From: Streptomyces griseus
GTDB taxonomy: Bacteria; Actinomycetota; Actinomycetes; Streptomycetales; Streptomycetaceae
Assembly: GCA_002154345.1 (NCBI GenBank)
Contig: MUNB01000118.1
Coordinates: 695 to 44,165 of the forward strand
Direction of reading: 5' to 3'
Length of the DNA stretch: 43,471 bases
In this document: piece after piece, positions 8,730 through 34,726 of the stretch
Numbering within the stretch: the first letter of the stretch is position 1
How the letters are laid out: the number at the start of each line of letters is the position of its first letter
Position numbers and translations under genes: made by a program
The notes under the pieces: model-generated
The model's input: the letters and a program-made list of their open reading frames with translations, nothing else
Databases searched by the model: none
What the model was told of the DNA's origin: nothing

Positions 8730-8753
8730 GGAGACCTCCAAGGGTCGGGACAC

Positions 8754-8875
8754 TGTCCGGACACTGTCCGGACAGCCGTTGAGGACGTGTCCGGACAGAC
8801 CTCCGGACACGGGAACGTCAGGGCTGTGACCTGCGCGGACACCGTCCCGGACACTGTCCGGCAGGTGTCCGGACA
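8754..8875. repeat. iterated TGTCCGGACA palindromes
   Basis: Four perfect 10-bp palindromes at 8754-8763, 8765-8774, 8788-8797 and 8866-8875, plus degenerate copies at 8802-8809 and 8855-8861. They fill the gap between the glycine-rich adhesin gene and the 92-aa gene. The same motif recurs at 35242-35330. Confidence 0.9.
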
Positions 8876-16974: not shown

Positions 16975-17019
16975 CTGGCAACCTCACGAACGTGATGGTT
17001 GCCCGGCCCAAAACCAGCG
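16975..17019 (-). promoter_or_regulatory. conserved leader box plus SD hairpin, tape measure gene
   Basis: Box CGCTGGTTTTGGGCCGG (plus-strand positions 17003-17019), then 28 bases to GTG. Between them is a hairpin: GGCAACC with an inner TCACG-TT-CGTGA and GGTTGCC. The GAGG Shine-Dalgarno lies in its 3' arm. Unlike the other copies there is no -10-like hexamer upstream; a terminator hairpin (17026-17046) occupies that place. Confidence 0.75.
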
Positions 17020-17025
17020 GCATCC

Positions 17026-17046
17026 GGCGGGACCAGAGGTCCCGCC
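17026..17046 (-). terminator. short terminator between chaperone and tape measure
   Basis: 9-bp perfect stem GGCGGGACC / GGTCCCGCC with a 3-base loop, 11 bases after the chaperone T-frame stop (17058). It may attenuate readthrough so that less tape measure than chaperone or tail tube protein is made (inference). Confidence 0.7.
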
Positions 17047-17057
17047 GCCTGTCCAGA

Positions 17058-17462
17058 CTATCCGGAGCGCCCGGTCAGCCTGTTGTCTTCTTCCTCCACC
17101 TGCCGCGCCATCGCCTGCGCCTGCGCCAGCGTGTAACCGCCGGGCTGCGGACGAGCACGCCTCTGCTCCCGGGGCATCCCCTTCGGCGGGGCGTACAACT
17201 GGGCCCGGATACGGGCCTCGTGCGCCTCGTCGTCCGCCGCCGCCAGCATCGACGACTCAGCGGCGTTGACCAGCCGCCTCAGCTGCCAGTCGTGGGGGTT
17301 GACACCTTGGAGCGCGAGACTCCCGTCCCACGCCTCCCAGCCCTCGATGGCGGCCTCGACGAGCCGGAGGACGACCCAGTAGGGCGCGAGCCGCCGCCGT
17401 AGAGCTCCACCACCCACTCCATCAGCTCGACGATGACCCGGTCCGGGAGGCGCAGCGTCCAC
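17058..17462 (-). CDS. tail assembly chaperone, frameshifted extension (T frame)
   Basis: This frame overlaps the 3' third of the upstream chaperone gene in the -1 frame and lacks its own SD. Convincing protein sequence begins around APYWVVLRLVEAAIEGWEAW and continues GVNPHDWQLRRLVNAAE, LYAPPKGMPREQRR and a helical end (TLAQAQAMARQVEEEDN). It is typical of the GT product of siphophage tail chaperones, made by programmed frameshifting so that G and G-T proteins coat the tape measure. The true 5' edge is the slip site, somewhere in 17279-17462, so the given start is only the edge of the open frame. Confidence 0.75.
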   Translation of the reverse strand: MDAAPPGPGHRRADGVGGGALRRRLAPYWVVLRLVEAAIEGWEAWDGSLALQGVNPHDWQLRRLVNAAESSMLAAADDEAHEARIRAQLYAPPKGMPREQRRARPQPGGYTLAQAQAMARQVEEEDNRLTGRSG

Positions 17463-17818
17463 CGGACGCTCGCCCCGTCCAGGTCGGCCGCCGCCGCCTC
17501 GGCCTCAGCCCACTTCGCGTACGTTCCGACGACCTCGCGAGCCTGGACGACATCCGCGCTCAGGAACACCTTCGCGGAGTCCTCGACCATCAGGTCAGCG
17601 AGGAATGTCCGGAGGGCGTTCGTCACCCCTCGTAGGGCGGACGGGTCGGCGTCCTCAAGGTTCTCCACGTCGACGCCGGCGCCGCGCTGCGCGTCGCGGA
17701 GCGCCATGTACCCGTCCATGAAGTCGTCGCCCATCACCTCCGGCTGGAAGCCGAGGTCGACCGAGCCGACCGTCGCGATGTGCGGCTCTGTGTTCAGTGC
17801 AAACGTCTTGTTGGCCAC
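17279..17818 (-). CDS. tail assembly chaperone (G protein)
   Basis: About 179 aa from GTG 17818 (VANKTFALNTEPHIATVGSV). The middle is helical (MDGYMALRDAQRG, ALRTFLADLMVED, AREVVGTYAKWAEAEAAA) and the fold ends near LPDRVIVELMEWVVELYGGG. After that the zero frame turns into low-complexity Ser/Arg/Pro, while the -1 frame becomes protein-like, which supports a shift around the GGCGGCGGC / CGCCCTACTGG region. I could not assign a textbook slippery heptamer. Placed directly before the tape measure, as in nearly all siphoviruses. Preceded by the conserved late leader. Confidence 0.82.
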   Translation of the reverse strand: MANKTFALNTEPHIATVGSVDLGFQPEVMGDDFMDGYMALRDAQRGAGVDVENLEDADPSALRGVTNALRTFLADLMVEDSAKVFLSADVVQAREVVGTYAKWAEAEAAAADLDGASVRWTLRLPDRVIVELMEWVVELYGGGSRPTGSSSGSSRPPSRAGRRGTGVSRSKVSTPTTGS

Positions 17819-17881
17819 GGGGTGCCCCATCATGCTGTGCTGTCGCCCGGCCCAAAACCAGCGGCGTCGACAGAGAGTATC
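17819..17881 (-). promoter_or_regulatory. late promoter and conserved leader, chaperone gene
   Basis: Minus strand: -10-like GATACT (17876-17881), 13 bases, then the box CGCTGGTTTTGGGCCGG (17847-17863), then 28 bases to GTG 17818. The GGGG-CA-CCCC just before the start can fold over the SD. This copy faces the divergent plus-strand moron. Confidence 0.7.
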
Positions 17882-17975
17882 CGCCAACCCGGGACGAGGT
17901 GCCGGGCGGGCGATCGAACCGCAAATTCTCCTCAACTCGGGTTCAACGGGGCATCAAGGGAGGAAAGTGGTCGGC

Positions 17976-18209
17976 ATGAGCATCTTCTCCCGGCGCAAGC
18001 GCCGCCCCGCCACCTCGTCCGGCTCCTCCGGCTCGTCCGGGTCGGCGTCGTCCCAGCCCCGCCAGGACACCACCAGCAGCACCTACACCCACTACGACAC
18101 CGGCAGTTCGTGGGGCGGGTCCTCTTCCGGATCCTCGTCCTGCGGCAGCTCCAGCAGCTCCAGCAGCTCCAGCAGCGACAGCGGGTCGTCGTCCTGCGGA
18201 AGCGACTGA
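17976..18209 (+). CDS. Ser/Gly-rich small protein, plus-strand moron (77 aa)
   Basis: The only plus-strand gene inside the late region. Basic N-terminus MSIFSRRKRRPATSS, then SGSSGSSGSASS, a TYTHYDTGSSWGG centre and poly-Ser tracts with four-residue Cys spacing (SSSCGSS ... SSSCGSD). GGAGG lies upstream of both GTG 17967 and ATG 17976; ATG is chosen. It is flanked by its own upstream gap and a strong bidirectional terminator, the usual layout of a moron expressed independently of the lytic programme. Function unknown; low complexity prevents assignment. A chance frame is possible, but SD plus terminator argue for a gene. Confidence 0.6.
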   Translation: MSIFSRRKRRPATSSGSSGSSGSASSQPRQDTTSSTYTHYDTGSSWGGSSSGSSSCGSSSSSSSSSSDSGSSSCGSD

Positions 18210-18266
18210 CGCACAGCACCCGGTCGGTTACCCTGAGTCCTGGGTGCGCCAGCTTCTGCTGGAGCG

Positions 18267-18307
18267 CCGAGCCCCCTCGTCACGCGGAAGCTGACGAGGG
18301 GGCTCGG
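18267..18307. terminator. strong bidirectional terminator
   Basis: 16-bp perfect stem CCGAGCCCCCTCGTCA / TGACGAGGGGGCTCGG with a 9-base loop, between the convergent moron (ends 18209) and the connector gene (ends 18319, minus). A second smaller hairpin CCAGC-TTCT-GCTGG lies at 18249-18262. Confidence 0.9.
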
Positions 18308-18318
18308 TTCATTCCAGG

Positions 18319-18696
18319 TCAGCGGCCCATTCGGAGCGCCCGACCGAGGAAGTTGTTCGGCTTCGTGCCCGGATGCCGGACGTACGCCGCGTAGACGACC
18401 CGGCCCCGTACCTCGAACCGAAGCGCACGCGCCCGACGCGGCCGAATCACATGTGGCCTGGTTCCGTCGAGGACCCAGCGCACGGCGGGGTGGTCGCAGA
18501 TGATGACGCCCTGGAGGCCGCGGGGGCCGTCCTCGATTTTCCAGGCGATGTACCGGCCCATGCTGCCCGGGGCCTCCCGCTCGGCGATGGCCGCGGTGCG
18601 CTGCGTCCGCTCGCCGAGCTTCCGGTACGTACGCCCTCCGCGCAGACGAAGCGCACGGGCGATCTTCCCCGGGTCGATCCGTACCTCAGCAGGCAT
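18319..18696 (-). CDS. neck/head-tail joining protein (HK97 gp10-like)
   Basis: 125 aa, ATG with GGAGG seven bases upstream. Basic small protein: IDPGKIARALRLRGGRTYRKLGERTQRTAAIAEREAP, split by turns, then GVIICDHPAVRWVLDGTRPHVI and a C-terminal YVRHPGTKPNNFLGRALR. The 'HPGTKPNNFL-RAL' ending is the signature of HK97 gp10-type neck proteins. Its place between connectors and the tail genes fits. Last gene of the connector operon, closed by the strong terminator. Confidence 0.78.
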   Translation of the reverse strand: MPAEVRIDPGKIARALRLRGGRTYRKLGERTQRTAAIAEREAPGSMGRYIAWKIEDGPRGLQGVIICDHPAVRWVLDGTRPHVIRPRRARALRFEVRGRVVYAAYVRHPGTKPNNFLGRALRMGR

Positions 18697-18711
18697 GACA
18701 CCCCTCCTCGT

Positions 18712-18876
18712 CTACGGGCGGAGCACGACGTACGTCCTGCCGTGCCGGTCGGTCTCGACATCAGGGACGTCGACCGGGCCCGTGTCGCAGTCCGAGTAGT
18801 TGTACGCCTCCACCACCAGGTCCCCGTGCTCCTCCTGCACCTGGGCCAGGCGGGCGATCACCTCGCTGATCAGCAT
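18712..18876 (-). CDS. 54-aa small protein
   Basis: Too short for most gene callers but protein-like: MLISEVIARLAQVQEEHGDL, then VVEAYNYSDCDTGPVD and HGRTYVVLRP at the end. The pattern 'I-EVI-L-EHGDL-V-V' followed by a short beta hairpin is common in small phage proteins of unknown role. It lies 15 bases upstream of the gp10-like gene and overlaps the upstream 105-aa gene by more than 100 bases in another frame. Confidence 0.65.
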   Translation of the reverse strand: MLISEVIARLAQVQEEHGDLVVEAYNYSDCDTGPVDVPDVETDRHGRTYVVLRP

Positions 18877-19078
18877 CGTCGTCCTCGTCGTCCGGGATCG
18901 AGCAGACCGGGCACGTTACCGGGTCGTGGTCGCGGGCCAGACTCGCCAGTACCTCGCCGGCCAGGTCCCGCTTCTCCGGGCCGAACGGTACGCCCTTCCA
19001 CGCGAGGGACGGCGAGGCGATCCACCCGCGCCGGTGGGCGACACCACGCCACCACGTCGGCCACCAGCCCCGGCGCAT
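18761..19078 (-). CDS. small connector-region protein (105 aa), unusual 3' overlap
   Basis: ATG 19078 overlaps the upstream stop (TGATG). The first ~68 residues look genuine: Trp-rich MRRGWWPTWWRGVAHRRGW, SLAWKGVPFGPEKRDL, then a CPVCSIPDDEDDD metal-knuckle-like segment. The remaining ~37 residues are Gly/Pro/Arg-rich and run antisense-like over the 54-aa gene, so the true protein may end sooner through a sequencing error or a frameshift. Probably a minor head-tail junction protein; family unknown to me. Confidence 0.55.
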   Translation of the reverse strand: MRRGWWPTWWRGVAHRRGWIASPSLAWKGVPFGPEKRDLAGEVLASLARDHDPVTCPVCSIPDDEDDDADQRGDRPPGPGAGGARGPGGGGVQLLGLRHGPGRRP

Positions 19079-19674
19079 CACAGGGACTCCCCGTCGGGGC
19101 ACGGCGCGCACCCGGGCAACGCCACGGTCGCCCGCTGCTCCAGCCCCACACAGCCGCCCTCCGGGCCGAGAGTCCGCTGAGCACCCAGCACGAACCGGCG
19201 CCCGCGCCGCCGCTGCTCCGTGCCCGGCAGGCAGCACAGCAGCGCTGTGTAGACCGTCACCATGTCGACGTGGAGGACCCGGGCCGCCGTCTCCAGCTCC
19301 TCGCACGTCGGCGGGCACCCGTCCTCGGAGAACGTCGGCGCGCACCGCAGCAGCGTCACCACCAGCTCCAGGGCCAGCATCGGCGGAGGCCCGCACCCGC
19401 GAACCCCTTGGACGATGCGGGACTCGGAGGGAAACTCCGTGTCGGAAGACGAGTAGATCCGGGCGACGGACACCGTGAGCTGCCCGCCATCGCCCTTGCT
19501 GTCGCACGGGTCGTCGCAGGAGTCCCAGGCGACCGCTCCGGGCACCACGCAGGCCCGGCACGCCGGGCATCCCGGCTGCCCGTCCACGGTGCCCGCCGAG
19601 GTGTCGAGGGCCTGGCACACGCAGCCGAGAACGGACTCGGCCAGGTCGTGAATCATCAGGGGGGTCAGGGCCAC
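19078..19674 (-). CDS. head-tail connector region protein, Cys-rich (198 aa)
   Basis: Starts at GTG 19674 (overlap with the upstream gene) or ATG 19656 (MIHDLAESVLGCV). Many cysteines in pairs: CVCQAL, CPACRACVV, CDDPCDS, CPPTCEEL, CLPG, CAPCPDG. The middle has LALELVVTLLRCAP and HVDMVTVYTALLCCL helices, and ends GLEQRATVALPGC, the beta pattern of tail terminator/completion proteins. Position after the adaptor and before the gp10-like gene suggests a neck or tail terminator protein; this is inference from order. Confidence 0.6.
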   Translation of the reverse strand: MALTPLMIHDLAESVLGCVCQALDTSAGTVDGQPGCPACRACVVPGAVAWDSCDDPCDSKGDGGQLTVSVARIYSSSDTEFPSESRIVQGVRGCGPPPMLALELVVTLLRCAPTFSEDGCPPTCEELETAARVLHVDMVTVYTALLCCLPGTEQRRRGRRFVLGAQRTLGPEGGCVGLEQRATVALPGCAPCPDGESL

Positions 19675-20474
19675 GTCGTCACCCGGGGCTGCTTGTAGTC
19701 CGGGCTGTAGACCCGGCTCGGGCTCGTCATCCGGTACGGGTTGGTCATGCTCAACCACATGTCTGTGAGCGGGAGGCCGGTGAAGCCGTCCCGGTAGAGG
19801 AGCATCGGGTCCGGCATCTCCATTTCCACGCCCTGCCGGGAGACCCGGGTCAGGTTCCGGTTCGCCCGGCACCCGCACGACCCCGACGCCGGCGCGCACC
19901 CCTTGAGGAGGTGGCACGTCAGCTCGGACACGGCGGCAATCGCCGCGTCGTCCAGCGGCAACCCCCACCGGTACGTCACCGCGAACGTGCCCTCTTCGGT
20001 GGGCGGCAGGCCCATCGCCTGGCAATCGGGCCAGCACTCGCCGTCCGTACGGACGAGGAGGCCGGGCGCATCCACCCGGTACTGCTCGGGCACCAAGACC
20101 TCGCCGTCGACCAGGACCTCAACGACGTCGTACACCGGGCCGGGGAGCTTCACCTCGCACAGCTCCCCGCACGAGCAATCCGACGCGCAGCCGCACACCG
20201 ACGCGTTCCGCCACTGCCCATCAGTCCCGATGTACGGCACCCACGGGCCCGTGCTCGTGCCCGCCTGGAACGACAGAACCCCGGTGTCGGCGCACGCCCG
20301 GCGGCACGGGCGCACCGTGACCGGGCACGGCCCCCAACGACGCCCGGACAGCCCCCAGAGGATCTGGGACGCAACCCGCGTCCACCGCTCCAACGTCTCC
20401 GGCTCCATGCCCTCGGGGACTTCGCAGCACAGCTCTGTCGGCCACGGGTCGCACACCCCGATCTGCAACGGCAT
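19665..20474 (-). CDS. head-tail adaptor/connector protein, Cys-rich (269 aa)
   Basis: Begins MPLQIGVCDPWPTELCCEVP, followed by a helix (ETLERWTRVASQILWGLSGRRWG) matching the conserved start of actinophage head-tail adaptor proteins. RPCRRAC, a CGCASDCSCGELC cluster, VKLPGPVYDVVEVLVDGEVL and TFAVTYRWGLPLDDAAIAAVSELTCHLL follow; the last is the typical adaptor C-terminal helix pair. The C-terminus (LLYRDGFTGLPLTDMWLSM) is also conserved in this group. It binds the portal face in the finished head. ATG overlaps the glycosyltransferase stop (TGATG). Confidence 0.75.
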   Translation of the reverse strand: MPLQIGVCDPWPTELCCEVPEGMEPETLERWTRVASQILWGLSGRRWGPCPVTVRPCRRACADTGVLSFQAGTSTGPWVPYIGTDGQWRNASVCGCASDCSCGELCEVKLPGPVYDVVEVLVDGEVLVPEQYRVDAPGLLVRTDGECWPDCQAMGLPPTEEGTFAVTYRWGLPLDDAAIAAVSELTCHLLKGCAPASGSCGCRANRNLTRVSRQGVEMEMPDPMLLYRDGFTGLPLTDMWLSMTNPYRMTSPSRVYSPDYKQPRVTTWP

Positions 20475-21190
20475 CAGTGCCGTCCCGGCCGCTCGTAGAC
20501 GGACGGCTCGGGGAACGCCTTCCGGATGAACTGGCCGACGTGCCCGTTCGCGAAGGAGTCGGGCATCGTCGACAGGAACACGTCCTGCGCCGAGTACCCG
20601 GTCGGCGCCCGGTGGAGGATCTTCACGTCCCGGATCTCCTCGCCGCCGAGCCCGGCGAGGTTCCCGTACAGCGTCCGCTTGTGCACGACGTTGAGGTGCT
20701 TCCCCACGTCAAGGGCGTGGAGCATCTGCGTCTTGTCGACGGTCATCGGGACGTGCAGCTCGTACGACAGCGGGTCCGGGTGGCCCAGCTCGCCAAGGAG
20801 CGCCGCCGTCTCCCGCATCCCCCGCAGGTAGTGCCCCGACGCCCGCGCCGCGTAGTACGCCTCGACCTCACGGACGGGACCGCGGTGCAGGACCGGCACA
20901 CCCGGCGTCCGGCGCATGACGAAGAAGTCGTCGTTGCACAGCACGAACGGATCGGAGATCAGCGGGTTCTCGCAGGCCCGCCGGACCGCCGCCGTGGTGT
21001 TCGCATACTTCGTGCCGCCCTGCCGCAACGGCAGGTGCCGGGCCGTCTTCACCCACTGCGGCATGTAGCCGACGATCCACACGCGCCCGTGCGGGAGGTT
21101 AGCCATCCACGACCGCAGCGCGTAGCGCAGCTGCCGGTTGATGGCCCCCTCTCGCACGGGGACGACGATGTCGGGAGCGCCCACGGTCAT
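20474..21190 (-). CDS. Stealth-like glycosyltransferase/phosphotransferase (virion modification)
   Basis: 238 aa. DIVVPVREGAINRQLRYALRS followed by GRVWIVGYMPQWV matches the 'LRYSLRS ... IVT-GQ-P-W' first conserved region of Stealth-type sugar-phosphate transferases. DPFVLCNDDFFVMRR matches their NDD-F second region. Also Arg/His-rich HLPLRQGGTKYANTTAAVRRA and HVPMTVDKTQML. Cytosolic. Its ATG overlaps the major tail protein stop (ATGA), so the two are made in step. Glycosylation of virion proteins by glycosyltransferases encoded next to their target is established in actinophages; here the tail tube is the likely target (inference). Confidence 0.75.
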   Translation of the reverse strand: MTVGAPDIVVPVREGAINRQLRYALRSWMANLPHGRVWIVGYMPQWVKTARHLPLRQGGTKYANTTAAVRRACENPLISDPFVLCNDDFFVMRRTPGVPVLHRGPVREVEAYYAARASGHYLRGMRETAALLGELGHPDPLSYELHVPMTVDKTQMLHALDVGKHLNVVHKRTLYGNLAGLGGEEIRDVKILHRAPTGYSAQDVFLSTMPDSFANGHVGQFIRKAFPEPSVYERPGRH

Positions 21191-21885
21191 GACGCCAGGC
21201 AGAGGTCGCCCTCGACGGGCGTGTACTCGCCGAGGACCGTCGGGGGTGCCACCGTGGTGACGAACGTGCGCCGGTGGCAGTTCGACCCCAGCGGAGTGAG
21301 GAGCGGGCCCGCCGTCCCGGCCGCGTCGGTCGGCATGACGTCGTACGGGCCGACGCCCCACGCCCCGCCGGCCCGGGTCGACCCGGTCAGCGTCAGCGCC
21401 GCCTGCTCGGAACCGACCTCCAGGTCACCGAGCATCCCGCCGGTCACCCACGGCATCAGCCAGTAGATCCACGCCCCGTCACCGGCCCCGTCGGTCGTGC
21501 ACACGTCGTCTCCGAGGACTTCCGCCCACAGCTCGATCGCGAAGCCGCTGTTGCACTGGATCGAGCAGTCGTCGTAGCCGATCGCCCGCCCGTCGTACCC
21601 GTAGACGACCGGGTTGCCGGTCGTCAGCTCAATGAACTCGGGGGACACCTCGAAGAAGCTGAGTTCGAGGTCGAAGCCACGGAACGACGGGCACCCGCGC
21701 TTGAAGCCGCAGATCCGGCCGTTCGCGGCCTTGTACTCGACGTCCTCGCCGTCCTCGGTGTTCGGGTTCATCGACAACGTCGCGAAGCAGTCGAAGCTGT
21801 AACCGTTGTCCTCGCCACAGATGGGGCGGCCACAGCCATCAACCCGGGTGACGCGGATGACGTCCGCATTGGCGATCAGGGGCAT
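21187..21885 (-). CDS. major tail protein
   Basis: 232 aa. Begins MPLIANADVIRVTRVDGCGRP, then GYSFDCFATLSMNPNTEDGEDVEYKAANGRICGFKRGCPSF split across beta strands, and FDLELSFFEVSPEFIELTTGNPVVYGYDG. That segment is the classic tail tube pattern of actinophages, in which 'P-F-ELLTG' precedes the tube hairpin. The end (FVTTVAPPTVLGEYTP) fits the last tube strand. ATG 21885 is chosen over 21900 because GGAGG lies five bases upstream. It forms the tail tube around the tape measure. Preceded by a promoter, conserved box and hairpin; followed by an overlapping glycosyltransferase. Confidence 0.88.
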   Translation of the reverse strand: MPLIANADVIRVTRVDGCGRPICGEDNGYSFDCFATLSMNPNTEDGEDVEYKAANGRICGFKRGCPSFRGFDLELSFFEVSPEFIELTTGNPVVYGYDGRAIGYDDCSIQCNSGFAIELWAEVLGDDVCTTDGAGDGAWIYWLMPWVTGGMLGDLEVGSEQAALTLTGSTRAGGAWGVGPYDVMPTDAAGTAGPLLTPLGSNCHRRTFVTTVAPPTVLGEYTPVEGDLCLAS

Positions 21886-21951
21886 CGGGGCCTCCAACAA
21901 GCGTGTGTTGGTTGGCCCGGCCCAAAACCAGCGGCATCACGGACGAGTGTA
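21886..21951 (-). promoter_or_regulatory. late promoter and conserved leader, major tail gene
   Basis: Minus strand: -10-like TACACT (21946-21951), 13 bases, box CGCTGGTTTTGGGCCGG (21917-21933), then 31 bases to ATG 21885. A hairpin GGCC...CCAAC/GTTGG...GGCC spans this gap and includes GGAGG in its 3' arm. No clear -35. Confidence 0.78.
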
Positions 21952-21953
21952 GC

Positions 21954-21981
21954 TGTGACCGGGCGACGCAACCCGGTCACA
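21954..21981 (-). terminator. terminator upstream of the major tail promoter
   Basis: 10-bp perfect stem TGTGACCGGG / CCCGGTCACA with an 8-base loop, 9 bases after the stop of the 70-aa gene. It separates the fibre operon from the major tail transcript. Confidence 0.82.
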
Positions 21982-21989
21982 ACTACGGA

Positions 21990-22202
21990 CTACTTCCCCT
22001 TCGCGCGCCGCGCCTTCGCGGGCGCAGCCTGGGGCTCGGGGTCCGCCACCGGCGGGGGCGGAGGCTCGACGGCCGATCCGGTCGCCTCCAGGTACTCCGC
22101 TTCTGTGACCTGCCGATACCCCGGAGGGATCGTCACGCCGAAGGGGCCAGGGTCGCCACTGACGGTCATGGCGCCGCCGTTCTCGGACAGGTAGTAGCGC
22201 AC
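21990..22202 (-). CDS. small hypothetical protein, Pro-rich tail (70 aa)
   Basis: GTG 22202 with TAGGAG upstream. First half: MRYYLSENGGAMTVSGDPGP and TIPPGYRQVTEAEYLEAT, a compact beta/helix element seen in small phage proteins. Second half is EPPPPPVADPEPQ followed by a basic KARRAKGK end. It closes the fibre gene cluster that follows the capsid genes. Possibly a connector or adaptor peptide; unknown. Confidence 0.6.
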   Translation of the reverse strand: MRYYLSENGGAMTVSGDPGPFGVTIPPGYRQVTEAEYLEATGSAVEPPPPPVADPEPQAAPAKARRAKGK

Positions 22203-22212
22203 AGGGAGACTC

Positions 22213-23601
22213 CTAGCGGGTGAGGGCGATCAGGTGGGTGTCGGTGATCCACTGGTGGATCGTCACGGTGCCGGTCGTGACCCGGATCGCCGGGTAGACG
22301 CGGACCGCGTAGCCGGTATGCGGCGGCAGGATCGTGGCCTGAGCCGTCGAGAAGGTGTCACGGCGGCGTCCGGCCGGGCCGGACGGCGTCAGCTCGGAGT
22401 ACATCAGCCTGCTGGCGAGCGGCCCTCCGTCGATCTGCACCGCGTACGCGAGGTCGAAGATCGCCCCCTCGGTCCACTCGAACTCGACGTGCCCGGTGAA
22501 CTCGGTGCTGAAGCTGACGCCCCGGCAGGTGCTGAGGGTGTCCGGCTCGTACAGGCCTTCCGACCATGCGGTGTCGTCGATGATCACGACGGTGCCGGTG
22601 GCCGGCATGACCGGCGTCCCCATCGGGTGGAGCTGCTGGAGCGTCAGCGCGGCCGTGGTGTGCTCCGGCGGCGTCCACAGGGCGCCGCTGCCCGGGTCGC
22701 ACTTCAGCGTGGAGTTTGCCGCCGCGTCGCAGTCCCAGTCGTCCGCCCACGGCTGCCCCCCAGCGATCGGGAACGCCGCCAGGGGCGCGGCCGTGGTGCC
22801 CTCGCCCTGGAGCCCGCAGCCGATCTCCAGCGGCTCGGCAGCGCCGCCCGGCGGGACGAGGAGACCGCCGTCCGTGCCGTACGACAGCGCGTTCCCGGCG
22901 TCGGTCGACGGGCGCGCTGTGATGACTCCGGTGTCCGGGTCGTACCCGGCTCCGTCCCCGGCGGAGAAGCACCCGCGTACGTCCGCGCACTCCAGGCTCA
23001 GCCCGTTGGGGCCGGACTGGATCAGCTGGTCGCCGCCGCCGGGCGGGGACGGGTCGAGGATGACCGAGCTGGTGACGACGAACGGATCGGCTGTGGTGCC
23101 CGTGCCGGTGACCGCGGTGGCGACGGTCTCGGAGTCGCCGCCCTCCACGACCGTCGTGTCCCCGCCCCCGGGCGGGACGAGGAGCCCGCCGTCCGTCCCG
23201 AAGCCGAGCGCGTTCCCGGCGTCGGTCGACGGCCGGGCGGAGATGACCCCGGTGGCCTCGTCGTACGCCGCCCCGTCCCCGGCGGAGAAGCACCCTCGCA
23301 CGTCCGCGCACTCCAGTGACAGGCCGTCCGGCCCGGACTGGATCAGCTGGTCCCCGCCGCCGGGCGGTGCCGGGTCGAGGATGACGGCGGCGCTCACCCG
23401 GATCGGGTCCGCTGCGGTCCCGGTGCCGGTGATCGTCGTGTCGACAGTCGGAGTATCGACTGCCTCGATCACGGTCGGCTCGCCGCCTCCGCCGGGCGCG
23501 CCGATCACGTACGGGGCGGTGGTGGAGCCGTCTCCGTCGACGGTCACGCCGGGGCCGGCAGTGACGATGCAGTCGCAGGAGCGTTCGTCGCAGCAGCTCA
23601 T
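22213..23601 (-). CDS. fibre protein with internal duplication (462 aa)
   Basis: ATG 23601 overlaps the collagen-like gene (ATGA). N-terminal Cys cluster MSCCDERSCDCIV, then 'GPGVTVDGDGSTTAPYVI', the strand-turn pattern repeated at fibre shafts. Two ~107-aa copies follow, each with VILDP-PPGGGDQLIQSG, LSLECADVRGCFSAGDGA and STDAGNAL-GTDGGLLVPPGG. The C-terminal ~180 residues (GTPVMPATGTVVIIDD, GHVEFEWTEGAIFDLAYAV, GYAVRVYPAIRVTTGTVTI) form a C1q/TNF-like jelly-roll pattern. Likely a head or tail fibre with repeated shaft and a trimeric head domain. Confidence 0.72.
   Translation of the reverse strand: MSCCDERSCDCIVTAGPGVTVDGDGSTTAPYVIGAPGGGGEPTVIEAVDTPTVDTTITGTGTAADPIRVSAAVILDPAPPGGGDQLIQSGPDGLSLECADVRGCFSAGDGAAYDEATGVISARPSTDAGNALGFGTDGGLLVPPGGGDTTVVEGGDSETVATAVTGTGTTADPFVVTSSVILDPSPPGGGDQLIQSGPNGLSLECADVRGCFSAGDGAGYDPDTGVITARPSTDAGNALSYGTDGGLLVPPGGAAEPLEIGCGLQGEGTTAAPLAAFPIAGGQPWADDWDCDAAANSTLKCDPGSGALWTPPEHTTAALTLQQLHPMGTPVMPATGTVVIIDDTAWSEGLYEPDTLSTCRGVSFSTEFTGHVEFEWTEGAIFDLAYAVQIDGGPLASRLMYSELTPSGPAGRRRDTFSTAQATILPPHTGYAVRVYPAIRVTTGTVTIHQWITDTHLIALTR
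22849..23439. repeat. tandem 321-bp in-frame duplication
   Basis: Copies at about 22849-23118 and 23170-23439, offset exactly 321 bp (107 codons). For example, GCGGGACGAG recurs at 22851 and 23172, and GTGCCGGTGA at 23102 and 23423. Both copies remain in frame and clearly similar, which points to duplication of a fibre shaft unit. Confidence 0.88.
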
Positions 23602-24002
23602 GGGGCTTCCCCTTCCTGGGGTTCGGTCGCGATCAGATGGACGGTGACGCCAGCCGCCGGGAGAGCGGCGGCCAGGAGGGAGATCCCGAGCAGCTCGACG
23701 ACGGCGGCACCGTCGGCCTGAACCGTCGTGCCGGCCGGGCTGTTGGCGGTGATGCGGACGGAGCGGAACCCGGCGCCCCCTTCCACGGCGAGGGTGACGA
23801 CCGGCGGCGCGGTGAACGGCGGGGACCATACGGTGTCCACTTGCCCCGCGGCGTTGGTGACCGCGCGGACCCGCTCCACCCGGACGCCGGGGCCGCCCGG
23901 TGTCCCCGGCTCCCCGGGAGTACCCGGCTCGCCTGGTGCGCCTGGTGCGCCTGGTGCTCCGGGAGGGCCGGGGATGGCGATGCTGCCGGTGGTGCCGCTC
24001 AC
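23598..24002 (-). CDS. collagen-like short fibre protein (134 aa)
   Basis: GTG 24002 overlaps the upstream stop (GTGA). Residues 11-39 are an uninterrupted Gly-X-Y run (GPPGAPGAPGAPGEPGTPG...), followed by VRVERVRAVTNAAGQVDTVW and a beta domain with PPVVTLAVEGGAGFRSVRI and AGVTVHLIATEP. Collagen-like triple helices trimerise phage fibres; the beta domain resembles the small head that follows such shafts. It sits between two giant fibre genes. Confidence 0.75.
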   Translation of the reverse strand: MSGTTGSIAIPGPPGAPGAPGAPGEPGTPGEPGTPGGPGVRVERVRAVTNAAGQVDTVWSPPFTAPPVVTLAVEGGAGFRSVRITANSPAGTTVQADGAAVVELLGISLLAAALPAAGVTVHLIATEPQEGEAP

Positions 24003-29812: not shown

Positions 29813-29864
29813 CAAGCTCCCATCGAGTCGTCGCGATTGTGGTTCGGGCTGATCGTCATCGGCC

Positions 29865-30626
29865 TCAGTCCCGGACTCGGAGGACCCGCATACGGGTCGC
29901 ACCGTTGCTGTCGGACCCGCCAGCTTCGGCCGCAGAGAGGACACCGCCGGTCTCGACTGCCATGAGGTGCAGGCGCACCGTCCGGGGGCCGGCGGGGACG
30001 GTGTACTCCGTCATGATGTGGACCGTGCCGCCCTGGTGCTCCTGCCCGCCTGGGGAGTTGATCGCCGCGATCTGCGTAAAGCTGGTGAGGAGCTGGCCGC
30101 TGGTCTCGTCCTGGAGCCAGCCGATCAGGTAACCGCTGCCGCCCGTCGTAGTACCGAGCGCGTACCGGACATCGGCGTCAACGTGGTAGACGCCTGCTTC
30201 GGGGAGCACGATGTCGGAGGCAGGCACCGGAACGTCCTGACCGATGGCGTCCAGGAGATTCTGGTGCTGCGCCTCGGCATTCAGGAACCCGGAGATCATC
30301 GACAGACGGGCGCCAACTGTCCAGGTGTCCGGGCACCCCTCGGCGTGAGTCATGTCGACGACCACGGACCGCCCTGTCCCCGCCGGATCAGGGGCAGAGT
30401 CGTCGACTGGGGCCAGGTCGGTGCGAGGCACCAGGATCCCATCGTCGGCCTGCACGGCGGCGTTGCACGGGTCGGCGGACAGGGCTGGCGGCCCGCTCTC
30501 CGGGACGTACAGGCAGCCCTCCTCATTCTGGGTGAGGGCGTTGTTCGGGTCGGCGGAGACACACAGCGGGGGCGCGCCGCCGCCTCCGTTGCCGAAGATG
30601 ATCGGCGGGCAGCAGTTGCAGCTCAC
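29865..30626 (-). CDS. fibre protein with C1q-like head domain (253 aa)
   Basis: GTG 30626 overlaps the upstream stop (GTGA), SD GGGAG. N-terminus VSCNCCPPIIFGNGGGGAP is a Cys cluster. CLYVPESGPPALSADPCNAAV and ADDGILVPRTDL are repeated turn motifs seen at the start of actinophage fibre proteins. Residues ~105-253 contain FLNAEAQHQNLLDAIG, IVLPEAGVYHVDADVRYAL, GSGYLIGWLQDETSG and RTVRLHLMAVETGG, the strand pattern of a C1q/TNF-like trimeric head. Likely a small virion fibre. A 52-base gap separates it from the giant fibre gene. Confidence 0.72.
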   Translation of the reverse strand: MSCNCCPPIIFGNGGGGAPPLCVSADPNNALTQNEEGCLYVPESGPPALSADPCNAAVQADDGILVPRTDLAPVDDSAPDPAGTGRSVVVDMTHAEGCPDTWTVGARLSMISGFLNAEAQHQNLLDAIGQDVPVPASDIVLPEAGVYHVDADVRYALGTTTGGSGYLIGWLQDETSGQLLTSFTQIAAINSPGGQEHQGGTVHIMTEYTVPAGPRTVRLHLMAVETGGVLSAAEAGGSDSNGATRMRVLRVRD

Positions 30627-31537
30627 GACACGTCTCCCATACCGCAAGGACTCACGAAGTTGATGTAGACCGCGGCGCCCTCGGGGACATCCACGGTGAA
30701 GGGAGAACAGAGCGCCGCCGGTTCGCACGCGCCCGTTGAGGGCGCAGCCCACGAGAACGCGGACCCGCATTCGTTGATCACGGTCGTGTTCCCGGCGCAG
30801 TCCGTGACCGTCACAGGGCCGCAGGCCACCGTGATGGCGAGGGACTCGGTTCCCTCGGGCATGTCCCACGTCTCCGGCCCTGACAGGCCAAGGAGCTGCG
30901 GGCACATCGGGGCGGGCCGGCATTCGCCGCACTCGCCGACGTCACCGGTCGGGGCGTACGGCGTCGTGCCGTCCGTCTCCGTGTCGGTCTGCTCCGTGAC
31001 GACCCCGGTCGTGCAGTCGTACGTCAGGTGCCGCAGGAACGGGACGCTGCTGCCGTCGAGCTGGTAGTCGCACAGCGGGACGACCTTCGTGCCGTCCACG
31101 CACGGGCAGTCATCGCAGTCGATCGACTGCCCGACCACGGCGTACGGCGTTGTGCCGTCCGTGCCGGTGTCGGTGGACGCGGTGACCTGGCCGTCACAGT
31201 CGTGGACCAGATGCCGCAGGAACGGCACGCACTCCCCGTCGTCGGTGCTGTCGCACAGGCGCAGCACGGTAACCGAGGCACAGCTGCTCGATGGGCACGG
31301 TCCGGCCCCGGCGGGGGCCGGACCGGCTGTGAACGCCCCGGTCGCTGGGTCGATCCAGCCCGCCACCTCCGGGGCGCCGGGCTGCGCCCCGTCACAGGCG
31401 CAGTCCGAGCGCAGGACCAGGAGCAGCGGTGTGCCGTCCTCCTGGCACAGGGCGACGGAGGTGATCGAGGGGGCGCAGCACGACGGGCCGGGCGTCCCGC
31501 CCCCGCCGTTGTCGCACGGGAGAGGCTCAACAGGCAT
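30623..31537 (-). CDS. small paralogue of the giant FLR/YTP-module fibre (304 aa)
   Basis: ATG 31537 with GAGGG upstream, one base after the preceding stop. N-terminus holds SCCAPSITSVALCQEDGTP and GWIDPATGAFTAGPAP, matching the N-terminal domain of the 1937-aa protein (VCLADGTP, GWINLTTGAYSAGAPP). Two modules follow: CVPFLRHLVHDCDGQV with TPYAVVGQ, and SVPFLRHLTYDCTTGV with TPYAPTGDVGEC. The C-terminal ~90 residues are a beta domain (ESLAITVACGPVTVTDCAG). This is a short version of the giant fibre without the inserted cargo, consistent with duplication and cargo gain. Function inferred as virion surface protein. Confidence 0.7.
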   Translation of the reverse strand: MPVEPLPCDNGGGGTPGPSCCAPSITSVALCQEDGTPLLLVLRSDCACDGAQPGAPEVAGWIDPATGAFTAGPAPAGAGPCPSSSCASVTVLRLCDSTDDGECVPFLRHLVHDCDGQVTASTDTGTDGTTPYAVVGQSIDCDDCPCVDGTKVVPLCDYQLDGSSVPFLRHLTYDCTTGVVTEQTDTETDGTTPYAPTGDVGECGECRPAPMCPQLLGLSGPETWDMPEGTESLAITVACGPVTVTDCAGNTTVINECGSAFSWAAPSTGACEPAALCSPFTVDVPEGAAVYINFVSPCGMGDVS

Positions 31538-31538
31538 G

Positions 31539-32099
31539 TCAGCCCTCGTGCTTCTGTCGGACGTGCATGTCCCGTCCCCGCGCGGTGGTGAACTCCCTGT
31601 CGCAGCCGTCGCAGCGGAAGCTCCCTTCCGGCTCCGGCTCCGGCTCCGGCAAGGGAACCGCGTCCGGGCCGTACGCCTCTGCCGGGATCTCGGGCAAAGG
31701 CTCGCCCGGGACGGCTTCCCGGGCAGGGGATTCCGTGACTGGCCCGCCGGGGCCCTCGCCCGGCCCGAACACCGCAACGGTCGCGCCCAGGCTGGCGAGT
31801 TCGGAGCGGGCAGGGCACTCCGGGTGCGGGTGGACCTCTTCGCCGTTCTCCTCGTAGCAGGTCCCGCAGTCCAGCAGCCGCGCGGGCGGCTGCACACCGA
31901 GCTGGGCGTCCTCGACCGGGGACACGTACCGGTGCCCGTCGATCGTGGAGCCGATCAGCAGCTCCTCCGGGACGGCCGGGAAGAGATCCGCGGGGACGGC
32001 GAAGCTGACGGGGCTGACGGTCCGCCACTTCGGCTTCTGGAGCACCGCGTACCGGGCGAACGCCCGCCGCTGCTCTGGGGTCGGCCGGACCTCGATCAT
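31539..32099 (-). CDS. capsid-region protein with C-terminal C2H2 zinc finger
   Basis: 186 aa from ATG 32099 (AGGAAG upstream); ATG 32111 overlaps the preceding stop and gives four more residues. N-terminal part: MIEVRPTPEQRRAFARYAVL, VPEELLIGSTIDGHRYVSP, and a CGTCYEENGEEVHPHPEC metal site. A Pro/Glu-rich linker leads to FRCDGCDREFTTARGRDMHV-RQKH, which fits C-x2-C-x12-H-x4-H exactly with the conserved Phe. Classical C2H2 fingers are rare in bacterial viruses' structural loci. It may bind DNA or a protein partner at the capsid; function unknown. Confidence 0.7.
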   Translation of the reverse strand: MIEVRPTPEQRRAFARYAVLQKPKWRTVSPVSFAVPADLFPAVPEELLIGSTIDGHRYVSPVEDAQLGVQPPARLLDCGTCYEENGEEVHPHPECPARSELASLGATVAVFGPGEGPGGPVTESPAREAVPGEPLPEIPAEAYGPDAVPLPEPEPEPEGSFRCDGCDREFTTARGRDMHVRQKHEG

Positions 32100-32107
32100 G
32101 GGCTTCC

Positions 32108-32950
32108 TCATGGACACGTAGTCACCGCCACTGCGCAGACCGTGCACGTGGTGCCGACGACGTACGTCCGCTCCACCAACACCTTGCGGTCGTTGTTCCG
32201 GGAATTCACGGACGGTCCGGGCCGGTCCGGGACCGTTTCGGGCGGGCCTCGGCGGATCACGACCGGGCCGGTGATGTAGAGCCATGCGGTGCCGGGCTCG
32301 GCGGGAATCCCGCCCGGCCCGGTGTTCATCGCGCTGTACCCGGCGCCGATGATCGCGCAGTTCCCCGCGAGAGTCCGCAAGTTGCCCGTCGCGGGGTCCT
32401 CCGTGAGGAGGTTGCAGCAGCCGAGGAGGGCGGCTGCCCCGGCGGGGACGTGGAGGACGCCACGGCCGCCGTACGACTCGGCCAGGCACCCTTCCAGCGC
32501 GGCGACGCCCTGGGCGACGGACACCGGGCCGGCGGCCGGGGTCAGGTCGACGGCGGTCATCGCCAGCTTCGACGTCCAGAACCCGGCTTCGACGGCTTCC
32601 TGCTCACCGAGGGCGAGGGACGCCTCGGCGTGGGCGCGGGCCTCCGCGTACGTCCAGCCGATCGTGGAGCACTTCGCGCCGGCGTACACGGTGATCGGGT
32701 CGGCGTGCTCCGTCGTCGGGCTACAGAACTCCTTCTGCGGCCGGGCCCCCGGCGACTCGTCACCGGGTGACTCGTCGTCCAGGCACGGGTCACGCCAGAC
32801 GTTGACCGGGCAGCAGCCCAGCGACAGCCACTCGGTGCCGAGGAGTTCGTGGGTGTCCTGGACGTCCCGGATTTCGGTGCAGGCACCGAGGATGCCGTGG
32901 GGAAGGGGCTCGCCCGTGATGGCCTCTACGTGCTTCCTCATGCCCGCCAC
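32108..32950 (-). CDS. head protein downstream of capsid (280 aa), unknown
   Basis: GTG 32950 with GGAGG upstream. MAGMRKHVEAITGEPLPHGI at the start, LGTEWLSLGCCPVNVWRDPC, YAGAKCSTIGWTYAEARAHA, then GGRGVLHVPAGAAALLGCCN and TLAGNCAIIGAGYSAMNTG. It ends DRKVLVERTYVVGTTCTVCAV. The 'VHVP...L...L-T-G-VV-GAGY' string resembles the C-terminal half of actinophage capsid-associated proteins. Directly follows the major capsid gene across a terminator, so it may be a minor capsid or decoration protein. Family not recognised with certainty. Confidence 0.65.
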   Translation of the reverse strand: MAGMRKHVEAITGEPLPHGILGACTEIRDVQDTHELLGTEWLSLGCCPVNVWRDPCLDDESPGDESPGARPQKEFCSPTTEHADPITVYAGAKCSTIGWTYAEARAHAEASLALGEQEAVEAGFWTSKLAMTAVDLTPAAGPVSVAQGVAALEGCLAESYGGRGVLHVPAGAAALLGCCNLLTEDPATGNLRTLAGNCAIIGAGYSAMNTGPGGIPAEPGTAWLYITGPVVIRRGPPETVPDRPGPSVNSRNNDRKVLVERTYVVGTTCTVCAVAVTTCP

Positions 32951-32974
32951 GACTCACCTCCGTTCAAATGGGGC

Positions 32975-33010
32975 GCCGGGGCCCGGGTGTCAGGTCACCG
33001 GGGCCCCGGC
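32975..33010 (-). terminator. terminator after the major capsid gene
   Basis: Stem GCCGGGGCCC / GGGGCCCCGGC, 26 bases downstream of the capsid stop on the minus strand. Partial termination here would favour capsid mRNA over the downstream fibre genes. Confidence 0.75.
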
Positions 33011-33035
33011 ACGATGCGGGATGTGAGAAGGCGGG

Positions 33036-34661
33036 TCAGGCGATCGGGCAGTCGATACCGAGCTGCTCGCCGGTACGGCCATCGGGGCAGACCGGGACGG
33101 TCACGACGCGGGCCTCGGAGTTCCGGGCGATCAGCGCCGAGCATTCCTCGGTGAACAAGGCCGTGTAGTCGTTCGTCTGGAACTTCGCGCTGTCGTGGAT
33201 CACGCCGAGGCTGATCTCGCCACCACGGCCGGCCTCGAACGTGCCCGCCGGGTAGAGCAAGAACGGGATGCTGTCCGGCCACGCGGTCGCCGGGTTGGGC
33301 CCGCCGATCGAGTCGGGGACGGCCGGGGTCAGGCCGCGCGCCCACTGGATGCTGATGCCGAGCTGGGCGAAGGCGTTGATGACGTCGCGGACGTTGATGT
33401 CGCTGATCGGGACACCGTTCTGCCTGGCGATGTCGGCGAGGAAGAGATTCCGCGACCACCAGGGGAACACGACCTCCACCTGGATGTTCGCGCAGAGCGA
33501 CAGCTTCTCGGTGATGTCGGCGGCCTGGAGCGCGACCGCCGCGAACATCGCGGAGAACGCGCCGAAGGTCGGCGCGATCGTCACTGGGGTCGACGCGGCG
33601 ACGGCCTGCGTGAACAGTTCCTGCTTGATGCGGATCTCGTGCGCGACCATCGCGAGAGACTGGTAGTAGGCCACCAGCTCCGGGAAGTGACGCTGCGTCA
33701 GAATGCCTGCTTCGAGGCACGCGCCGATCGCCTCACACCGCACCTCGACCGGGTCGGGGCACGGGATCCGGAAGCAGGGCTTGACGGCGCCGCTGATGTC
33801 GTCGGCCTCGGTGTGGACCCACGTCATCGACGCGACGTCGAGGGACGGCATCGGGAAGTACCGCAGACCACCGCGGGCGAGCTGGATCTCCGGGAGGTCC
33901 CACAGCATCTCGGGGCAGGACATCCCCGTCAGCTCGTAGACGGTCTCCGAGGGGGCGCACCAACCGCCGGACGCGACGAGGTCGCCGCCCTGGAGGCGCG
34001 CCTGGTCACCGGCGAGGACAACCGCCCGAGTGCCCTCCGTGCCCGAGCTGGAGTCGTTGACGATCAACTCCGGCTGGAACGGCAGCCGGTAGCTGGCGGT
34101 CAGTCCCACACCGCCACCGGCGGTCTTGAGCGCGTTCGCGCGGCGGATGATGCCCTCGGTGACGCCCTCCATGTCGAGGGCCTGGCCCGGCGAGTACCCA
34201 GGGACGTCCACCGACGCGGTGATCTCCGGCCGGGGGTTCGGGTCCGGCGGCAGCACGCGGGGCATCCGGCGGCGCACCGACGCCAGGTTCAGGGCGGGGC
34301 GGCGACCGGACGCGGTGACCGCGGGGGTCTCCGGCTCGGGGGTCGGCTCCGGCTCGGCAGCCTCGGCGGAGGCGGTCTCCTCGACCGGGGCCACCTCGGC
34401 GGTGTCCGGGCTGTCGCCGCGCACGGAGGCGGCGAGGGCGTCGATCTCTGCGGCAGCCTGCTCGGCGGCCTGCTGGCGGGCGGCCTGCTCGGTCCGGATC
34501 GCCTCGACTCCCGTGCTGAGGGCGCGCAGGGCCTCAAGGTCCGTCGAGGTGATGGTTTCGGCACGGTATCCGGCGTCGAACGCGGCGATGGCCCCGTCCA
34601 GAGCGTCTGAGAGCTGCTCGTCGTCGAGGGCGGTGATGTCTTCGGGAAGCTCGAAGTCCAC
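33036..34661 (-). CDS. major capsid protein with N-terminal scaffold-like domain
   Basis: 541 aa from GTG 34661 (GGAGAG upstream). Residues ~1-140 are acidic/coiled coil (ALDDEQLSDALDGAIAAFDA, EAIRTEQAARQQAAEQAAAE) and Pro/Glu-rich, a delta-domain-type scaffold that is usually cleaved. The shell domain follows: PEITASVDVPGYSPGQALDM, SGGWCAPSETVYELTG, ARGGLRYFPMPSLD, RHFPELVAYYQSLAMVAHEI and a C-terminal VEVVFPWWSRNLFLADIARQ with YTALFTEECSALIAR. This pattern is the HK97-fold capsid of Streptomyces siphophages. It assembles the procapsid and is matured by the protease in the upstream fusion. Preceded by the conserved leader. Confidence 0.9.
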   Translation of the reverse strand: MDFELPEDITALDDEQLSDALDGAIAAFDAGYRAETITSTDLEALRALSTGVEAIRTEQAARQQAAEQAAAEIDALAASVRGDSPDTAEVAPVEETASAEAAEPEPTPEPETPAVTASGRRPALNLASVRRRMPRVLPPDPNPRPEITASVDVPGYSPGQALDMEGVTEGIIRRANALKTAGGGVGLTASYRLPFQPELIVNDSSSGTEGTRAVVLAGDQARLQGGDLVASGGWCAPSETVYELTGMSCPEMLWDLPEIQLARGGLRYFPMPSLDVASMTWVHTEADDISGAVKPCFRIPCPDPVEVRCEAIGACLEAGILTQRHFPELVAYYQSLAMVAHEIRIKQELFTQAVAASTPVTIAPTFGAFSAMFAAVALQAADITEKLSLCANIQVEVVFPWWSRNLFLADIARQNGVPISDINVRDVINAFAQLGISIQWARGLTPAVPDSIGGPNPATAWPDSIPFLLYPAGTFEAGRGGEISLGVIHDSAKFQTNDYTALFTEECSALIARNSEARVVTVPVCPDGRTGEQLGIDCPIA

Positions 34662-34726
34662 GGATCTCTCCAGTGATCGTTCTTGGAGAGTCCGGCCCAA
34701 AACCAGCGACGCTGGCGCACAGCATA
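34662..34726 (-). promoter_or_regulatory. late promoter and conserved leader, major capsid gene
   Basis: Minus strand: -10-like TATGCT (34721-34726), 13 bases, box CGCTGGTTTTGGGCCGG (34692-34708), 30 bases, GTG 34661. The hairpin CTCTCCA ... TGGAGAG holds the Shine-Dalgarno GGAGAG in its 3' arm. No clear -35. Confidence 0.8.

Follow-up and report, generated by a model that had tools for sequence, protein, structure and literature searches.

What is the role of a sequence box that recurs unchanged in front of several late genes? In a 43,471-nt stretch of Streptomyces griseus DNA (MUNB01000118.1; this whole stretch is called the window), the 17-base box CGCTGGTTTTGGGCCGG occurs in four exact copies on the minus strand, the coding strand here, where an initial annotation of the sequence had placed them. 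The copies precede the capsid, major tail, chaperone and tape measure genes, at distances from box end to start codon of 30, 31, 28 and 28 nt, in agreement with the 28-31 bases given earlier. The gene identities rest on PHROGs for three of the four and, for the chaperone, on a 44% match of the open reading frame (ORF) in that position to gp26 of the cultured phage TurkishDelight, an annotated tail assembly chaperone. A chance repeat is ruled out: with up to three mismatches allowed the window contains five matches against 0.25 expected, and none of 100 shuffles reaches five. Model R1 gives the four copies 34.5-37 bits and the next-best site in the window 16.6 bits, so there is no fifth copy, and assembly GCA_002154345.1 contains no exact copies beyond the four.

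The initial annotation took the box to be part of a phage-specific late promoter class, standing beside a separate hairpin that carries a translational switch. We report instead that the box itself is the core of a 21-nt RNA hairpin, and that this hairpin is a genuine structured element, widespread in the 5' leaders of virion genes in actinobacteriophages. Its fold and placement are well supported, and we see an even chance that it is bound, in late mRNA, by a trans-acting factor that controls translation.

A conserved hairpin with compensatory base changes

The stem-loop has bulged G, U and G residues and a tetraloop. Its conserved stretch spans box positions -1 to 19, and the full motif, GCCGCUGGUUNUGGGCCGGGC, ends 26-29 nt upstream of the start codons in the window. 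Copies were collected from 109 chosen loci (1.05 Mb), where 346 box-like places were reduced to 308 by deduplication, to 231 by a mismatch and start rule and to 218 by a redundancy rule; six further copies without a called start were kept outside the 218. Start codons were assigned by a simple rule, which gets some of them wrong, and because the sequences are related the copy counts are not independent events. Pair -1:19 is GC in 188 of the 218 copies, AU in 14, CC in nine, CG in three, GU in three and AC in one; pair 0:18 is CG in 201, UA in eight, UG in eight and CA in one; and pair 1:17 is CG in 184, UG in 16, GG in nine, UA in eight and AG in one. Nine copies that appear broken have the same stem plus one extra bulged base, a bulge-size variant. 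Loop positions 8 and 11 switch jointly from U,G to G,A in six of six cases.

A first alignment of 41 rows held 29 double-changed cells compared with 12.0 +/- 2.7 after shuffling. With 75 rows from all groups, 97.1% of the cells are paired and 46 are double-changed, compared with 11.6 +/- 2.7 in shuffles, none of 500 of which reached that number; sliding the partners by one column lowers the count to 7. The alternative pairing 3:17, 4:16 was rejected, with 33 rather than 46 double-changed cells and with 13 and 6 broken cells. Since the 75 rows had been picked with a pattern that requires the standard 3:16 pair, this pair was tested separately with both bases free: all 45 capsid leaders match (C-G in 41, A-U in three, U-A in one). 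A wider scan of 257 sites found CG in 245, AU in four, GC, UA and UG in one each, and five unpaired sites, of which those listed come from unrelated bacteria or other viral sites. The letters UGG and GGCC and the bulges are kept in 75 of 75 rows, and from one phage lineage to the next the loop letters change but stem and bulges do not. Computation thus establishes the first hairpin and its compensatory changes. Rfam 15 has no match at the gathering score in the window or in three other loci (L079, L236, L179), and a search at E up to 1 over positions 16950-22000, an interval that leaves the capsid leader outside, returned two weak matches, both off the leaders.

Position relative to the expected transcription start

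Spacing was computed for the 208 leaders that have no tandem box and 70 nt or more of upstream sequence. TAnnnT lies 2-16 nt before the stem in 177 of them and 17-45 nt before it in 22 more, hence within 45 nt in 199 of 208; nine have none. No hexamer ends at gaps of 0-3 nt and one each at 4 and 5 nt (background about 0.8 per position), while the counts listed for 6-13 nt are 43, 21, 25, 41, 21, 13, 5 and 5, which places a sharp lower limit at 6 nt. The -10 is strict, its fifth base being C in 88%, and no conserved -35 element is visible at the -35 distance in 176 aligned leaders. A -10 element normally ends about 6 nt before +1; with a lower limit of 6 nt, the stem may therefore start at +1, not earlier. 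Where the hexamer is more distant the gap is often occupied by another hairpin (by eye, in 31 leaders); in the tape measure leader of the window TAGTCT is separated from the stem downstream by 33 nt that include a 9-bp hairpin.

The initial annotation had described hexamers upstream of three boxes at exactly 13 bases. The hexamers are indeed present; the gap, by coordinates, is 12 nt. In the chaperone leader the hexamer of the family form is TACTCT, overlapped by the GATACT named earlier, and the tape measure leader, which had been described without one, has its hexamer too.

In our judgement the earlier proposal, a phage-specific late promoter with the box as one of its DNA elements, is hardly credible. 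The regular hexamer without a -35 would suit it, and WhiB-family genes, which occur in TurkishDelight, TP1604, plasmid NZ_CP109332 and a satellite-like plasmid described below, could serve such promoters. However, the spacing to the hexamer is free but lower-bounded at the expected +1, the gap can be filled by a hairpin, and the bases covary, with compensatory changes and a bulge-size variant, so that the box does not look like part of the promoter; we read it as an RNA element. The hexamer itself may be a promoter, with transcription probably starting at the expected place downstream of it.

A hairpin at the 5' terminus might alternatively be a stabiliser that needs no dedicated factor and protects abundant late mRNAs from 5'-end-dependent decay. 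The terminal position and the hairpins that often fill the distant-hexamer gaps agree with this idea, but plain protection would not require the invariant UGG and GGCC letters and the conserved bulges, and we regard it as quite improbable.

Distribution among phages and genes

The exact 17-mer is present in 70 IMG/VR stretches and 95 genome-contig stretches. The genome-contig matches comprise leaders built in the same way, from Streptomyces in most cases and from Micromonospora and Nonomuraea in a few, plus chance-like sites in unrelated bacteria; the latter (e.g. five in Methylobacter) were excluded, hexamer and second hairpin being absent by eye, as were three IMG/VR stretches (L019, L027, L044). 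Behind the 218 copies lie the genes for the chaperone (43), tape measure (38), major tail (28), a gp32-type protein (21), capsid (19), a second minor tail protein (15) and a gp33-type protein (4); these seven virion classes take 168 of the 218, and over the class-assigned copies the box ends on average 29.6 nt before the start. The other 50 include 26 genes of one further family, six of another and three that are endolysin-like by reading. By computation, therefore, the hairpin occupies a defined position relative to hexamer and start codon in a set of late genes, and the earlier proposal of an element tied to late genes and accompanied by a -10-like hexamer holds.

In TurkishDelight there are nine copies, among them tandem pairs upstream of the genes for major tail and tape measure. 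The annotated start of its gp33 (30557) falls inside the hairpin (L079, 30546-30590); an ATG about 33 nt further suits the family better. In the Woodruffvirus phages TP1604, Xkcd426, Mischief19 and phiSAJS1 the capsid and tape measure genes are preceded by a diverged form whose outer stems differ, and some Woodruffvirus major tail genes have it too. Hairpins with another loop precede the capsid and major tail genes of Gordonia phage Ashertheman and the capsid, major tail and tape measure genes of Gordonia phage Twister6. Microbacterium phage Hendrix has the hairpin before its tape measure gene and a capsid copy with a longer loop that scores only 21 bits.

Prevalence was assessed independently of the box in loci picked by their capsid protein, the best 80 of 521; 77 of them entered the analysis, since L294, L297 and L313 have incomplete flanks. 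Among capsid relatives of at least 48% identity the core occurs within one substitution in 41 of 45, compared with 54 of 834 random windows, and all 45 carry the hairpin once 3:16 may covary; the recurrence at the same genes in related phages that would support the element is thus found. Below 36% identity 3 of 32 match, not clearly above the background of 24 of 602 windows. Four of these distant relatives (L283, L295, L296, L304) have another leader with CTCCCAGCGCCAAGCGCGGAG upstream of the capsid gene, perhaps an analogous element.

A box-like query of the phage collection matched nothing but two TurkishDelight records and, weakly and in coding sequence, two records of Mycobacterium phage Chris. 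Model R1 matches 20 of 150 genomes of the same genus, 7 of 147 across the order (in one genus of five) and 3 of 296 across the class, where the sole match outside the genus is a single site without a called start (L228). Host genes were rejected as users of the element: the isolated R1 sites that were inspected turned out to be phage genes or their remnants, sites in coding sequence, mobile-element genes and a CRISPR-like array, with L196 unclear. Model R2 matches 40 of 296 genomes across the class; only two of the 12 loci inspected, both in the same genus, have hexamer, stem and start, and the other class-wide matches are therefore not counted. Stem, hexamer and start accompany six sites among the at least 120 stretches with the CGAG-loop pattern, and 27 sites among the 64 stretches with the GNTA-loop pattern. 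At two places, L207 around 7970-8050 (NZ_CP108270, followed by a cas3 gene) and L192 around 1480-1560, the box lies by eye between two CRISPR-like repeat copies and therefore reads as a spacer from a phage leader.

Copies on plasmids

Virion genes are not strictly the only ones with the element. It also stands before a gene for a ParB-like protein (L154, L165) and one for a D5-type primase (L197). In plasmid-type elements (L093, L109, L223, L208) it precedes a small gene, and there no hexamer is seen nearby by eye; the L208 record includes a transfer gene. The 16.3-kb circular Streptomyces virginiae plasmid NZ_CP108092 (L206) encodes a primase-polymerase, a helicase, an integrase, terminase and WhiB, and a PHROGs scan of 14 of its 17 coding sequences gives no match to capsid, tail or portal. 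To judge from its sequence it looks like a phage satellite, represented by one lineage in two records. It has two hairpin copies, one before the gene leading into the terminase genes and one before the primase-polymerase gene, where the copy lies inside the annotated gene. A satellite-like plasmid with two copies suggests that the signal works in trans. A search for more satellites with the terminase protein, run without a positive control, found none in 246 genomes; among plasmids the protein picked up both S. virginiae records and, more weakly, five relatives. Salinibacter and Rhodococcus likewise have small plasmids that carry a terminase relative.

A second hairpin and the Shine-Dalgarno sequence

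The region from base 16 to the start codon has a mean predicted folding energy of -12.5 kcal/mol in 209 leaders, compared with -8.4 kcal/mol in dinucleotide shuffles (mean z -1.8; 60% below -1). The second hairpin predicted here uses bases 17-19, that is the 3' arm of the first hairpin (the GGC strand). In the window it amounts to -10.1 kcal/mol in the capsid leader, -13.7 in the major tail leader and -4.0 in the chaperone leader. The earlier statement that each leader has a hairpin with the Shine-Dalgarno sequence is clearly borne out for capsid, major tail and tape measure, and weakly for the chaperone. The Shine-Dalgarno sequence is also predicted to be less accessible than in other genes: median accessibility is 0.21 in 202 box genes and 0.39 in 152 other genes of two carriers (p 4e-9), and 29 Woodruffvirus-type leaders behave alike (0.26).

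In a swap test with 34 leaders, the leader's own bases 17-19 win 15 times, lose 15 times and tie four times. By triplet, the own bases favour the second hairpin in 8 of 16 GGU leaders versus 19 of 167 in the converse (p 5e-4) and in 5 of 9 GAC leaders versus 29 of 167 (p 0.014). A strand common to both hairpins is moderately supported by these predictions, and a translational switch, as the initial annotation suggested, is plausible.

A hairpin possibly read by a trans-acting factor

In the mechanism that we favour, each late gene would have its own leader, with a TAnnCT -10 and no conserved -35, and with the bulged stem-loop starting at the expected +1 or a few bases downstream of it. During lytic growth a trans-acting factor would recognise this first hairpin in the RNA. 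The second hairpin would begin on the same GGC strand, often holding the Shine-Dalgarno sequence in Streptomyces phages, and since both folds use that strand they would be mutually exclusive at the base. By binding the first hairpin as it emerges, the factor would keep the GGC strand from the second hairpin and so jointly raise initiation on the virion genes. We infer the binding of the factor, its action as an activator rather than a repressor, and its origin in the phage.

Several observations weigh against this mechanism. Bases 18-19 are paired in the second hairpin in 164 of 209 leaders against 141 expected from shuffles; in the swap test none of six AGC leaders passes, and the GGU passes are not independent since nearly all are capsid leaders. 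Chaperone leaders hide the Shine-Dalgarno sequence poorly (accessibility 0.49), and in five Gordonia-type leaders with a CGAG loop, where a second hairpin on the same strand is seen by eye, it is open (median 0.60). When the first hairpin is imposed, the median cost is about 10 kcal/mol and mean predicted Shine-Dalgarno accessibility rises only from 0.25 to 0.33; a switch would therefore depend on a binder or on co-transcriptional timing. That a hexamer almost always accompanies the hairpin would also suit a role at RNA polymerase. Finally, gene comparison of the carriers yields no nameable candidate for the binder: TurkishDelight ORFs matched in all other carriers compared (of which the window and Mischief19 are partial) all belong to the virion module; among the ORFs outside this module, matches in two or three carriers are found for WhiB, an HNH gene, a single membrane protein and a small number of others.

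A role at RNA polymerase could take the form of antitermination, in which the nascent RNA element, bound after promoter escape, would make the enzyme resist termination in the late region. The boxB/nut elements of lambda and put of HK022 are promoter-proximal antitermination RNA hairpins with lineage-specific loop letters, and the hairpin described here is likewise found at the extreme 5' end of the leader, in an early transcribed region as judged from the hexamer, with loop letters that shift between phage lineages on a constant stem. Unlike boxB/nut and put, however, it recurs before many single genes, next to their start codons, and is coupled to a second hairpin with the Shine-Dalgarno sequence; the plasmid-type copies without a nearby hexamer also speak against antitermination, which we consider unlikely. 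The opposite effect on translation is conceivable as well. RNA-phage coat operators are one model for translational repression through a bound hairpin, and a virion or regulatory protein might turn late genes down in the same way: the bulged 5' side and the small loop near the start region are compatible with this, and one operator on many virion genes could balance output. Yet no regulator is seen, and the second hairpin is predicted to lower access already without a protein; repression appears very improbable.

Beyond activation by a hairpin-binding factor, one can tentatively imagine a two-state leader with the interchangeable strands GCC/GGC/GCC, a tetraloop read by a phage-lineage-specific factor, a virion regulon set gene by gene, and satellites and plasmids that exploit it in trans. 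This wider and more doubtful scheme spans phages of several actinobacterial genera, with satellites and plasmid-type elements coupling their own genes to lytic infection in the same cell.

Features of the window

The leaders and their genes are listed in Table 1. A small MxCxC protein is encoded directly before the capsid gene (about 35014-34856, minus strand) and occurs in 34 of 45 close relatives; as a candidate binder it was rejected, since it is also found in distant relatives without the hairpin. The late region contains a tRNA-Trp (cca) gene (23796-23886, minus strand). Inside the tape measure gene a 62-nt stretch occurs seven times at multiples of 132 nt (13805-14790), and repeats of the GGACACTGTCCGGACA type lie at two distant sites (8737-8875 and 35236-35341).

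Table 1. Leader elements and late genes in the window
Feature	Position	Strand	Evidence
TATGCT, -10-like hexamer of capsid gene	34721..34726	-	Coordinates and family-wide position statistics
21-nt hairpin, capsid leader; GUC...GAC outer stem variant (U-A variant)	34690..34710	-	Exact box, fold/compensation, R2 match
Second hairpin with Shine-Dalgarno, capsid leader; shares bases 17-19 of first hairpin	34663..34692	-	Predicted fold
Major capsid gene	33036..34661	-	phrog_777
TACACT, -10-like hexamer of major tail gene	21946..21951	-	Coordinates
21-nt hairpin, major tail leader	21915..21935	-	Exact box and R2 match
Second hairpin with Shine-Dalgarno, major tail leader	21889..21917	-	Predicted fold
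Major tail gene	21187..21885	-	phrog_792
TACTCT, -10-like hexamer of chaperone gene	17874..17879	-	Coordinates
21-nt hairpin, chaperone leader; only a weak second hairpin after it	17845..17865	-	Box, R2, fold
Tail assembly chaperone gene	17279..17818	-	phrog_12617 (function not given); match to TurkishDelight gp26
TAGTCT, distant -10-like hexamer of tape measure gene	17055..17060	-	Coordinates
Additional GC-rich hairpin in tape measure leader, between hexamer and conserved hairpin	17026..17046	-	Counted by eye
21-nt hairpin, tape measure leader	17001..17021	-	Exact box and R2 match
Second hairpin GGCAACC...GGUUGCC with Shine-Dalgarno, tape measure leader	16977..17003	-	Sequence, predicted fold
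Tape measure gene	12520..16974	-	phrog_305

Relation to described motifs

In the accessible portions of the papers cited here, the nearest printed kind of element is represented by the cluster K start-associated sequences (SAS) with their extended form (ESAS) and by repeated motifs of Microbacterium phages. The cluster K SAS is the 13-bp GGGATAGGAGCCC at the ribosome binding site; SAS and ESAS are restricted to the genome half with non-structural genes, their function is unknown, and the ESAS repeats, according to the authors, offer no support for RNA pairing (PMC3203893, PMC12699233). They share with the present element the character of short repeats in one orientation near start codons with a suspected role in expression. 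They differ in sequence (GCCGCUGGUUNUGGGCCGGGC here versus GGGATAGGAGCCC), and the present element lies further upstream, at virion genes, and forms a covarying hairpin; the likeness to cluster K sequences before structural genes, drawn in the initial annotation, does not hold given their restriction to the other genome half (PMC3203893). Microbacterium clusters EC, EF, EG and EI have repeated intergenic motifs, most of which lie either between terminase and portal or in front of non-structural genes; the EC motif, 18 bp in 12 copies, lies 21-30 bp before starts, upstream of the ribosome binding site, with unclear function (PMC7302621). Our element has a similar position (28-31 nt, with one of four copies at 31; mean 29.6). 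The EC consensus TAGaCTaTaGGTgTaAgC is absent, only its hexamer-like TAGaCT part resembling the sequence upstream of the hairpin; the Microbacterium motifs have other sequences, and the accessible text reports no RNA fold for them (PMC7302621).

A structured translation start is known from phage Mu, whose Com protein binds a stem-loop at the start of mom and activates translation (PMC6483171), and a phage factor on the hairpin is a possible mode here too. Com-mom concerns one gene, a known zinc-finger protein and another RNA motif; here many genes and a putative binder are involved. A Com-like hidden start is predicted on average in Streptomyces-phage leaders, weakly in chaperone leaders and not in the five Gordonia-type leaders. 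The literature searched, in which subscription papers are mostly not covered, contains no occurrence of the box 16-mer and no mention of TurkishDelight together with Streptomyces; the matches listed for Streptomyces phage late leaders include nothing relevant, and a term search found no such motif in papers on cluster BG phages, Geonosis and CW39.

Implications

Start-associated repeats of actinobacteriophages have been known since at least 2011 without a known role, as far as the accessible text goes (PMC3203893). The present repeat has an RNA fold supported by covariation, more than 200 copies, fixed gene targets and natural variants, and the element is therefore directly testable by compensatory mutation and pull-down. 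The motif also aids gene calling, since the annotated starts of TurkishDelight gp33 and of the NZ_CP108092 primase-polymerase lie within or upstream of it. If a binder exists, the hairpin would be a common switch for virion genes and a handle on the gene-by-gene tuning of capsid and tail output, and it might offer satellites a possible way to sense their helper.

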